From NCBI GenBank assembly GCA_937925595.1, contig CALALQ010000406.1, positions 1 to 36,700 of the forward strand: a stretch of DNA of 36,700 nucleotides. The letters are read 5' to 3'. Source of the DNA: an uncultured Demequina sp. Its GTDB lineage: Bacteria; Actinomycetota; Actinomycetes; Actinomycetales; Demequinaceae. Numbering within the stretch: position 1 is the first letter of the stretch; each line of letters starts with the position of its first letter. Positions 6,116 through 25,748 of the stretch are shown here, piece after piece. Both the position numbers and the translations under genes were made by a program. The notes below the pieces were generated by a model. The model worked only from the letters and a program-made list of their open reading frames with translations, did no database searches and was not told the DNA's origin.

Positions 6116-6142
6116 CCTTCTCCAGGCATGGTTGGGAGAAGG
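6116..6142 (-). promoter_or_regulatory. hairpin sequestering the terC Shine-Dalgarno
   Basis: On the minus strand CCTTCTCC (6142-6135) and GGAGAAGG (6123-6116) form a perfect 8-bp inverted repeat around an 11-nt loop that contains the upstream ATG. The right arm is the only good ribosome binding site for terC, so folding would block translation. The left arm can instead pair with GGGAAGG at 6229-6223 (six Watson-Crick pairs and one G-U). The two pairings are mutually exclusive, as in a translational on/off switch. Confidence 0.7.
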
Positions 6143-6229
6143 TTTCGTCCGCCGGAACCGCGCGGCCGGTGGCGCCGGGCCTATCGGCCGTGCTGACGAA
6201 CGCCACCCGTCGGGACTACTTCCCTTCCC
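6136..6229 (-). promoter_or_regulatory. candidate yybP-ykoY (Mn2+) riboswitch upstream of terC
   Basis: A 94-nt leader that resembles the yybP-ykoY aptamer, whose usual targets include terC-type genes. Elements on the minus strand: outer helix GGGAAGG (6229-6223) with CCTTCTC (6142-6136); 6-nt left loop GAAGTA (6222-6217; the family has GGAGTA as I recall it); inner helix GTCC (6216-6213) with GGAC (6150-6147); 4-nt right loop GAAA (6146-6143); CGTCA at 6198-6194; a GGCC-GATA-GGCC hairpin (6189-6178); and CACCGGC at 6171-6165. Against it: one change in the conserved left loop, weak P3/P4 helices, a competing 7-bp helix GGTGGCG/CGCCACC (6207-6201 with 6175-6169), and overlap with the end of bioF. 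The family assignment rests on remembered consensus and has not been searched. Confidence 0.5.
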
Positions 6230-14501: not shown

Positions 14502-15712
14502 TGAACGACATTTCGCAGGGCCCCTGGGACGTCATCGTCGTCGGGGCGGGCATCCTCGGCCTGGCCACCGCGCGTGAGTGGATGTTGCGCTCCCCCGACG
14601 CACGTGTGCTGGTGCTCGAGCGCGAAGCCGACATCGCCCAGCACCAGACCGGCCACAACTCCGGCGTCATCCACGCCGGCATCTACTACAAGCCCGGGTC
14701 GCTGAAGGCGCGGCTGTGCGCCGAGGGCCGCGACGCGATGTACCGGTTCTGCGACGAGCACGGGGTCGCCTACGAGAAGTGCGGCAAGCTCATCATCGCT
14801 CTCAACCCCTCGGAATTGCCGGCCCTCGATGAGCTGGAGCGCCGCGGGATCTCGAACGGCGTCCCCGGCCTGCGCCGCCTGTCGGGAGGCGAGATCGCGG
14901 AGATCGAACCCCACGCCGTCGGCGTCGCCGCCCTGCACTCGCCCGAGACCGGCATCATCGACTTCGCCGCCGTCGCCCGGGTGCTCGCCGACGATCTTCG
15001 CGCGCGGGGCGCCGTGATCGCCTGCGGCGTCTCGGTGCGCTCGATCATGCGGCACGGCTCGACCACGATCGTCGACACCTCGGGCGGCGCGATCCCGACG
15101 GCGCGCGCCGTCGCTTGCGCCGGCCTCTGGTCCGACCGCCTCGCCCAGCGCAGCGGCGACGACGAGAACCCGCGGATCGTCCCGTTTCGTGGCGGCTACG
15201 CCAAGCTCAAGCCCGAAGCCCGGTACCTGGTGCGGTCCCTGATCTACCCGGTCCCGGACCCGTCGTTGCCCTTCCTCGGCGTCCACCTGACCAAGACGAT
15301 CTCGGGCGACATCTGGCTCGGCCCGACCGCCCTGCTCGCCCCGTCCCGCACGGCGTACTCGCTGCGCTCGATCAACCGCTTCGACATCGGCGCGACGCTG
15401 AGCTGGCCCGGCACCTGGAAGATGGCGAAGCGCTTCTGGCGCACGGGCCTGACCGAGATGCACTTCGCGGCCCGCCGCAGCGCCTTCGTCGAGGCCTGCG
15501 CCGCCTACGTCCCCGAGCTTCGGCCCGAACACGTCGAGCCCGGCCCGGCCGGCATCCGCGCCCAGGCCGTCGACCGCTCCGGCGCCCTCCTCGACGACTT
15601 CGCCTTCGGCACCGCGCCCGGCGTCGTCCACGTCCGCAACGCCCCGTCCCCGGCCGCCACGTCCTCCCTGGCGATCGCGAAAATGATCGCGGACCGTCTG
15701 GACGCCGCCTAG
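14501..15712 (+). CDS. lhgO: L-2-hydroxyglutarate oxidase-type FAD oxidoreductase (LhgO-like)
   Basis: 403-aa FAD-dependent oxidoreductase of the DAO fold. The N-terminal dinucleotide-binding motif is VVGAGILGLATA. LhgO family signatures are HQTGHNSGVIHAGIYYKPGS, the FAD-contacting RGGYAKL, DPSLPFLGVHLTK, the GPAGIRAQAV region and the C-terminal VRNAPSPAATSSLAIA. LhgO oxidises L-2-hydroxyglutarate to 2-oxoglutarate at the membrane and passes electrons to the respiratory chain. It starts at the ATG overlapping the dehydratase stop by 1 nt, with no ribosome binding site of its own, so translation is coupled. The pairing hints that its true substrate may be a hydroxy acid related to the dehydratase pathway. 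Confidence 0.9.
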   Translation: MNDISQGPWDVIVVGAGILGLATAREWMLRSPDARVLVLEREADIAQHQTGHNSGVIHAGIYYKPGSLKARLCAEGRDAMYRFCDEHGVAYEKCGKLIIALNPSELPALDELERRGISNGVPGLRRLSGGEIAEIEPHAVGVAALHSPETGIIDFAAVARVLADDLRARGAVIACGVSVRSIMRHGSTTIVDTSGGAIPTARAVACAGLWSDRLAQRSGDDENPRIVPFRGGYAKLKPEARYLVRSLIYPVPDPSLPFLGVHLTKTISGDIWLGPTALLAPSRTAYSLRSINRFDIGATLSWPGTWKMAKRFWRTGLTEMHFAARRSAFVEACAAYVPELRPEHVEPGPAGIRAQAVDRSGALLDDFAFGTAPGVVHVRNAPSPAATSSLAIAKMIADRLDAA

Positions 15713-15732: not shown

Positions 15733-15806
<74 letters not shown>

Positions 15807-24986: not shown

Positions 24987-25436
24987 TCAGCCGTCGTGTT
25001 GCATCGGCGCAAACTCGTCGACACCGAATTGGCCCAGCAGCTGCGCCATCAGCCCGGCTGCCTGCGCCCCGTAACCGCTCTCCGCAATCCTTCGAATTGG
25101 CGACGGGCAGCCGAAGATCTTCAGGCGCCCGAATCCGTCCCAGTCGGTCTCGGTGTAGTTGACCGCCTGAGCGGCCCAAGCGGTAAACCGACGGGTGTCG
25201 ACGCTGCGCTCGTCGGCAATCTTGAACTCGACGCCGAACGCCGGACGATCGTCCTTCCACGGCTCCGGATCCTTAGGGACGAGCGCGGCGTCGAGTCGGA
25301 AGCGACGGCCGGACCAGTGCGTTCCCTGAAGCTCCTCGTGAACGACGCACCACGTCCCGAGCTTGTCGAGCACGCACGTTGCGAGTGCAGCTTCGGTCTC
25401 GATCGGCGGTAGCGGCAGACGGCGTTCGTCGATCAT
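24987..25436 (-). CDS. PD-(D/E)xK nuclease-like small protein, function unknown
   Basis: 149 aa from ATG 25436; the frame stays open to a GTG at 25634 (215 aa), and neither start has a clear ribosome binding site. Acidic residues E34/E35 in a helix, D49 in FRLDAAL and E70-F-K72 in FGVEFKIADE follow the E...D...ExK order of PD-(D/E)xK nucleases. A conserved-looking aromatic segment, FTAWAAQAVNYTETDWDGFG, comes next. The core beta strands around D49 and E70 are short but plausible. It is divergent from the helicase gene and just outside attR. The nuclease assignment is inferred from motif order only. Confidence 0.6.
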   Translation of the reverse strand: MIDERRLPLPPIETEAALATCVLDKLGTWCVVHEELQGTHWSGRRFRLDAALVPKDPEPWKDDRPAFGVEFKIADERSVDTRRFTAWAAQAVNYTETDWDGFGRLKIFGCPSPIRRIAESGYGAQAAGLMAQLLGQFGVDEFAPMQHDG

Positions 25437-25748
25437 CGCGTGAGAGTTGCACGGCGCAGGGCTCGCGGATCCGTTGCCGAGGCGCTCAACGCGCCGCTGC
25501 GTGATCGCAGCAATCAACTCGATGTCCGTGTCGTCGTGGAGCACGACGACACCCGCGCATCGCGGCGGTTGGCGGCTCCCGCATTCCGTGTCCGTCGCGC
25601 GCAGCACCTGCCACCACTTGCAGCCGCCGACCACCGAATACTCTGAACAGTGCCTAAGTGAGTGAGCGCCTCAGCGCACGTCGCGAAACGGATGCAGTTC
25701 TGACCTCTGTATCCGGTCGAGCCGACCCCGCCGGTAGTTTCTGCCGCC
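25437..25748. other. divergent intergenic region between nuclease-like and helicase genes
   Basis: 312 bp. Its left two thirds can be read as an N-terminal extension of the nuclease-like gene (open frame to 25634, mostly G/C third positions). The right third, from about 25640, is lower in GC and probably carries the helicase promoter. No tRNA, repeat or further small ORF was found. Confidence 0.4.
25735..25740 (+). promoter_or_regulatory. possible -10 box for a leaderless helicase mRNA
   Basis: TAGTTT fits the TANNNT pattern and ends 8 nt before the GTG at 25749, which has no Shine-Dalgarno. Such spacing is typical of leaderless transcripts in actinobacteria. No good -35 is visible. Confidence 0.3.

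Follow-up and report, generated by a model that had tools for sequence, protein, structure and literature searches.

What lies at the junction of bioF and terC, and does it control terC? In the window (the whole 36,700-nt stretch of DNA analysed here), the initial annotation had proposed a Mn2+-sensing riboswitch of the yybP-ykoY class that overlaps the end of bioF and acts on terC by sequestering its Shine-Dalgarno (SD) sequence. The segment 6227-6138 on the minus strand is very probably a divergent member of this class controlling terC translation, with Mn2+ as its predicted ligand. The class, the terC target and a platform for SD sequestration are supported by a match to a model trained without the window (R3, below), covariation, gene context and folds. 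Actinobacteria are already known to carry yybP-ykoY leaders, according to the available part of PMC3890552, and no description of the present variant was found in the searched literature, which consisted mostly of papers outside subscription.

The element and its features

The features are as follows.

6227-6138, minus: predicted yybP-ykoY-type (Mn2+) aptamer, P1 to P1', 90 nt; full-length matches of models R1, R2 and R3
6229-6223, minus: switch helix P1, 5' strand GGGAAGG, partner 6142-6136; from sequence and constrained fold
6142-6136, minus: switch helix P1, 3' strand, also contributing to the anti-SD helix on its 5' side
6222-6217, minus: loop L1, 5' strand GAAGUA, with A6221 at the place of L. 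lactis G9; columns 6-11 of alignments A2/A3
6146-6143, minus: loop L1, 3' strand GAAA, with A6144, the equivalent of L. lactis G94, opposite A6221
6216-6213, minus: P1.2, 5' strand GUCC, paired with GGAC 6150-6147; two-sided changes at 4/4 pairs in A3
6150-6147, minus: P1.2, 3' strand GGAC; A3 covariation
6207-6201, minus: P3, 5' strand GGUGGCG; two-sided changes at 7/7 pairs
6174-6168, minus: P3, 3' strand CGCCACC; A3 covariation
6200-6190, minus: loop L3, 5' strand UUCGUCAGCAC, in which A6194 corresponds to the Mn-sensing A41 and C6190 to C45 of L. lactis
6189-6178, minus: P3.2 hairpin GGCC-GAUA-GGCC; two-sided changes at 3/4 pairs
6177-6175, minus: loop L3, 3' strand CGG; columns 115-117, invariant in 85/85 rows
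6166-6151, minus: P4 hairpin GCCG/CGGC with a variable loop; two-sided changes at 4/4 pairs
6142-6116, minus: anti-SD (OFF) hairpin, CCTTCTCC 6142-6135 with GGAGAAGG 6123-6116; -10.7 kcal/mol alone
6123-6116, minus: terC SD sequence GGAGAAGG
6108-5146, minus: terC (TerC/Alx family), probable start TTG 6108-6106; PF03741, TIGR03718
7419-6181, minus: bioF frame from the first listed GTG, the true start probably lying further in

The motifs GAAGTA, GTCC/GGAC, GAAA and CGTCA (6198-6194, minus), on which the initial annotation relied, are all present on the minus strand. CACCGGC is present as well but is not the 3' strand of L3, since it spans the end of P3 into P4. The 7-bp helix suspected of competing with P3 (6207-6201 with 6174-6168) is P3 itself, with two-sided changes at each of its seven pairs. 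Outside the P4 loop, the stretch hardly differs between the window and the four Solirubrobacter loci found first (two of which, L001 and L002, are identical there), and its pairs covary over 85 distinct sequences, which together indicate that it is more than a chance arrangement.

Family membership, covariation and the RF00080 model

Homology models were built from the element outward and, in reverse, from known members of the family; the E-values of models of this kind are rough. "Class", "order" and "phylum" refer to those of G001, the genome of the Solirubrobacter locus whose TerC is 89% identical to that of the window. Model R1, built from nine sequences with the window element among them, matched the window over the full length of 6227-6138 (91.4 bits, with the window in training) and found the element in 58 of 399 class genomes; its class matches in G325:C86, G056 and G326 lie outside the locus set. 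Model R2 was built from 60 aligned matches (A2), that is, class sequences and the window, including L034, a sub-threshold RF00080 match. It matched the same 6227-6138 over full length with 87.7 bits, the window again being in training, and found the element in 73 of 296 phylum genomes. Only the best R2 phylum matches were made into loci, and 27 new ones entered alignment A3; both A2 and A3 consist of selected loci with most duplicates left out.

R2 also reaches known members of the family. It matched the whole of the E. coli alx leader (45 bits, E 1.3e-9) and eight of the nine phylum RF00080 loci, three of them at E < 1e-4, two at < 1e-3 and three at 0.006-0.08. It gave no match on the ninth, L119, or, at E 10, on the mntP leader. 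In the reverse direction, alignment A4, the training set of R3, combines the alx leader with eight RF00080 loci from actinobacteria (one above the RF00080 cut-off; the eight may include members of the same class) and leaves out the window and the genomes of the class and order draws. R3 places the window element first in 36.7 kb, with 59.5 bits and E 2.2e-14, in a register that A4 takes from R2 and with one visibly poorly aligned row (L118). The held-out mntP leader scored 39.9 bits. Models built in both directions thus suggest that the window element and RF00080 represent the same family.

The next R3 match in the window (14809-14899, plus; 18.1 bits, E 0.008) aligns without CGUCA and without the GAGUAG of L1 and was therefore taken as chance, as was an R1 match at 25401-25494 (E 0.17). 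Weak Rfam matches to nhaA-II, drz-agam-1, S15-Halobacteria, DUF3085 and microRNA families all lay far below their gathering scores and were discarded. The sole Rfam match above gathering score in the window is a tRNA gene at 15733-15805 on the plus strand.

The Rfam model RF00080 itself, from which the initial annotation had expected a significant hit, gave no match in the window, neither at the gathering score nor at E 10. It likewise gave none at E 5 among 20 class loci, and among 20 phylum-search loci it produced one weak match (L133, 23 bits). The alx and mntP leaders of E. coli are reported Mn riboswitches in the available part of PMC9603457; the RF00080 copy used here did not report the alx leader (L124:1377-1499) at E 0.1 and gave the mntP leader 41.6 bits, below the cut-off of 45. 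In its structure line, the 5' bases of P1, L1 and P1.2 are unpaired and the GUCA of L3 is paired with UGGC. Because this copy misses alx and draws P1, L1, P1.2 and L3 in this way, its miss of the window says little, and the missing match was rejected as a refutation of the class.

In its own draws of genomes, RF00080 found matches in one of 249 class genomes (0 above cut-off) and in eight of 246 phylum genomes (one above cut-off). Among the 73 R2-positive phylum genomes it matched six (5/37 and 1/36), one of them above cut-off; in five of these six, at least one RF00080 match overlaps the R2 match, and in G531 the RF00080 match lies elsewhere. The present Rfam model may therefore greatly understate how common the Mn2+ riboswitch is in high-GC actinobacteria (73/296 by R2, six of those by RF00080), and the results point to a better structure model for RF00080.

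Covariation among relatives, which the initial annotation had named as a check, is strong. Over the 85 distinct rows of A3, an alignment fitted to the model's own structure and thereby favouring it, there are 359 two-sided cells compared with 95.6 after shuffling; none of 500 shuffles reached 359 and the best slide gave 58. In total, 94.8% of the cells are paired, and 20 of the 24 pairs carry two-sided changes: all pairs of P1.2 (4/4), P3 (7/7) and P4 (4/4), 3/4 in P3.2 and 2/5 in P1, whose five modelled pairs are formed in 97.4% of cells. The predicted architecture of P1, L1, P1.2, P3, L3, P3.2 and P4 is therefore supported by covariation.

The E. coli alx leader shares with the window the order L1, P1.2, P3-L3-P3.2 and P4, a short linker between P1.2 and P3 and a downstream gene of the TerC/Alx family. 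It differs in L1, where alx has GGGGAGUA with GAGA (a G-G pair) and the window GAAGUA with GAAA (A-A), and in P4, which is a long arm in alx and short in the window. The window has a 5-nt linker where the RF00080 consensus draws a small hairpin. The cg2157 terC leader of C. glutamicum, compared here by annotation, shows that a terC leader from the actinobacteria has been assigned to yybP-ykoY before, with 49.13 bits for RF00080 from Rfam (PMC3890552, available part).

Loop L1 and the predicted metal site

The bases that hold the metal in the L. lactis riboswitch are G9, U39, C40, A41, U44 and C45 (PMC9190785, available part). The UCA of CGUCA is the counterpart of U39-A41, and the C lying four positions beyond its A is the counterpart of C45. 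In CGUCA, the C, G, C and A are invariant in 85/85 rows and the U is kept in 81/85. The column equivalent to A41 (column 46) is A in 85/85 rows, A6194 in the window, and that equivalent to C45 (column 51) is C in 83/85, C6190 in the window. The yoaB riboswitch of L. lactis (PDB 4Y1I) has the A41, C45, G8, A10 and A95 positions in common with the window and also uses an outer helix, P1.1, as its switch helix; it differs in using a transcription terminator and in having G9-G94 where the window has A-A (PMC9190785 and PMC6754395, both available in part).

The initial annotation had regarded one changed conserved base as odd. The change stands (A6221 for G9) but is no longer odd, being apparently compensated on the opposite side of L1 by A6144 for G94. 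Mapping of the L. lactis L1 contacts from the available parts of PMC9190785 and PMC6754395 indicates that, of the sarcin-ricin-like L1 with G8-A95, G9-G94 and A10, the window keeps the G8, A10 and A95 positions and has exchanged G9-G94 for A-A as a coupled change. Over the 85 distinct rows, the L1 pair is G-G in 43, A-A in 25, C-G in 12, C-A in four and A-C in one (L092); A-G and G-A do not occur. L034 is misaligned over L1 in A2/A3 and in truth has G-G there. On a 65-row TerC tree the A-A state requires four changes, of which the starred branches force at least three, a count whose strength is limited by shared ancestry and gene transfer. The row counts, lacking A-G and G-A, and the changes on the tree together indicate that the L1 change is coupled and repeated. 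These loci offer a natural experiment on how well a metal-binding site in RNA copes when a non-canonical pair is exchanged. An A-A pair may adopt the same trans Watson-Crick/Hoogsteen form as G-G here.

Does the exchange alter function? Instead of being a neutral replacement, A-A, C-G and C-A loops could set apart a subtype that functions differently, with another metal threshold or metal preference. The repeated origin of A-A on the TerC tree speaks for this, as does the C-A pair, whose four rows (L082, L084, L087 and L098) all have the aptamer upstream of genes for M48 (HtpX-like) peptidases. Against it, the A41 and A10 positions are unchanged, and A-A rows with a TerC gene have the same target as G-G rows. 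Moreover, G9 of L. lactis contacts the metal through its phosphate and not its base (PMC9190785, available part), such that the swap may be neutral, and we consider a functional subtype unlikely. An equally doubtful extension is that these loops mark a re-tuned branch of the Mn2+ riboswitch, which would have arisen repeatedly within the actinobacteria through coupled exchange of a non-canonical pair beside the metal site and would differ from G-G members in metal threshold or selectivity. The Solirubrobacter aptamer would then also read the translation of bioF, as bioF ends inside it.

Proposed switching, target genes and the overlap with bioF

The perfect 8-bp pairing of CCTTCTCC (6142-6135) with the terC SD sequence GGAGAAGG (6123-6116), proposed by the initial annotation, is confirmed. 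Its 7-bp outer helix holds for six pairs, 6228-6223 with 6142-6137, which form in the P1-constrained fold (one as G-U); the seventh, G6229-C6136, is possible by sequence only. Since the strand 6142-6136 is common to P1 and the anti-SD helix, the two folds are mutually exclusive, and the idea of two helices competing for one shared strand is borne out by sequence and folds alike. The unconstrained minimum-energy fold of 6245-6097 is the OFF form with the anti-SD hairpin (-64.2 kcal/mol), and the constrained ON form has -58.2 kcal/mol, a value that excludes ligand and tertiary energy.

We infer from this arrangement a translational ON switch. Without Mn2+, the leader would adopt the hairpin that hides the SD sequence and terC would be off. 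Mn2+, together with Mg2+, would dock loop L1 onto loop L3 and so stabilise P1, which would withdraw the CCTTCTCC strand from the anti-SD hairpin, leaving the ribosome-binding site free and terC on. TerC/Alx might then handle the excess metal.

A comparable stem is found in many relatives. Among 86 leaders, the longest stem that the P1' region can form with the sequence downstream of it has a mean of 8.1 bp, compared with 6.2 bp for shuffled sequences, which preserve base composition only, and 6.5 bp for swapped downstream stretches; G-U pairs were allowed and contact with the SD sequence was not required. The stem with the leader's own downstream stretch exceeds the mean of the swapped ones at 73 of the 86 loci. 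In 12 of the 86 the longest stem is shorter than 7 bp, and some of the longer stems make no contact with the SD sequence; both points count against the proposed switch.

Control could instead act on transcription, through Rho or intrinsic termination. Transcriptional yybP-ykoY switches are well described (PMC11087558, available part), and four relatives (L034, L115, L122 and L150) have a stem followed by a T run at the place of the anti-SD hairpin of the window. No terminator-like site was found in window positions 6400-6050, and the 3' partner of the switch strand in the window is the SD sequence itself, which makes transcriptional control rather improbable here and argues for translational control. 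A scan of 6400-6050 found no sigma-70-type promoter. Just upstream of the aptamer, at 6240-6235 on the minus strand and in several relatives, lies TATCGT/TATCTT, which might serve as a -10 element within the upstream gene.

The product of terC matches PF03741 at E 1.2e-48 from the TTG start and TIGR03718 with 367.9 bits (cut-off 246.4), and is 87-89% identical to the TerC of four Solirubrobacter records. Translation probably starts at TTG 6108-6106 and not at the ATG at 6129. The TTG lies 7 nt past GGAGAAGG and is replaced by GTG in L003 and L035; the ATG lies within the loop of the anti-SD hairpin and is absent from these same two loci.

TerC is encoded within 1.2 kb downstream of the element in 66 of the 88 A3 loci (704 nt away in L085), a count in which the 19 loci found through TerC favour TerC. 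A Pfam search on 18 of the other 22 loci gave four P-type ATPases, three GDT1, four Na/Ca exchangers, four M48 peptidases, one VTT, one M50 and one unmatched gene; 11 of the 22 thus have cation transporters, drawn from three families. The RNA alone led to the 27 phylum-search loci, which are followed by TerC (16), P-type ATPases (four), Na/Ca exchangers (two), GDT1 (one), M50 (one), a gene without Pfam match (one) or the contig end (two). Leaders of the yybP-ykoY class typically accompany genes for TerC, P-type ATPases and GDT1. Control by Mn2+ can be predicted for the TerC, ATPase, GDT1 and exchanger genes of these genomes.

We infer Mn2+ as the ligand, and the E. coli alx riboswitch responds to alkaline pH as well (PMC9603457, available part), so that a different aptamer class, for another metal or for pH, might be built on the scaffold of the Mn riboswitch. 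This is highly improbable given the conserved bases of the metal site and the downstream genes, which mainly encode TerC or cation transporters.

The overlap with bioF proposed at the outset is real: the bioF stop TAG (6183-6181) lies inside the aptamer, into which the gene runs 47 nt. The same 47-nt overlap and a common TAG occur in the Solirubrobacter-type loci L001, L003, L004 and L035, and the BioF C-terminus is nearly identical in these four and the window, the last residue being R or Q. Translation of bioF extends 47 nt into the aptamer, which ribosomes travelling along a bioF-terC transcript would disturb, a point against the proposed switch. Elsewhere the RNA persists beside other genes. 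An upstream frame stops exactly at the UAG of L1 in nine loci. Pfam recognises four of these frames, those of L056, L060 and L061 as PPK2 and that of L081 as an alpha/beta hydrolase. The remaining five may be open by chance. At some further loci the RNA is kept where no long frame ends near it. Conservation of the BioF C-terminus plus a simple anti-SD hairpin, with no aptamer, would fit the 47-nt overlap and the similar last residues in five sequences but is scarcely credible and was rejected, because the compensatory changes fit pairing and not codons and because the overlapping gene elsewhere is PPK2 or alpha/beta hydrolase, or no long frame exists.

The upstream gene terminates on the UAG of L1 at L056:1364-1375, L060:2525-2536, L061:1359-1370 and L081:1578-1589. 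Further upstream in the window, a small CxxC frame between bioB and bioF (7436-7272, minus), which overlaps the bioB stop, matches the NCBIfam model of BsaP, the biotin synthase auxiliary protein, with 64.9 bits (cut-off 39).
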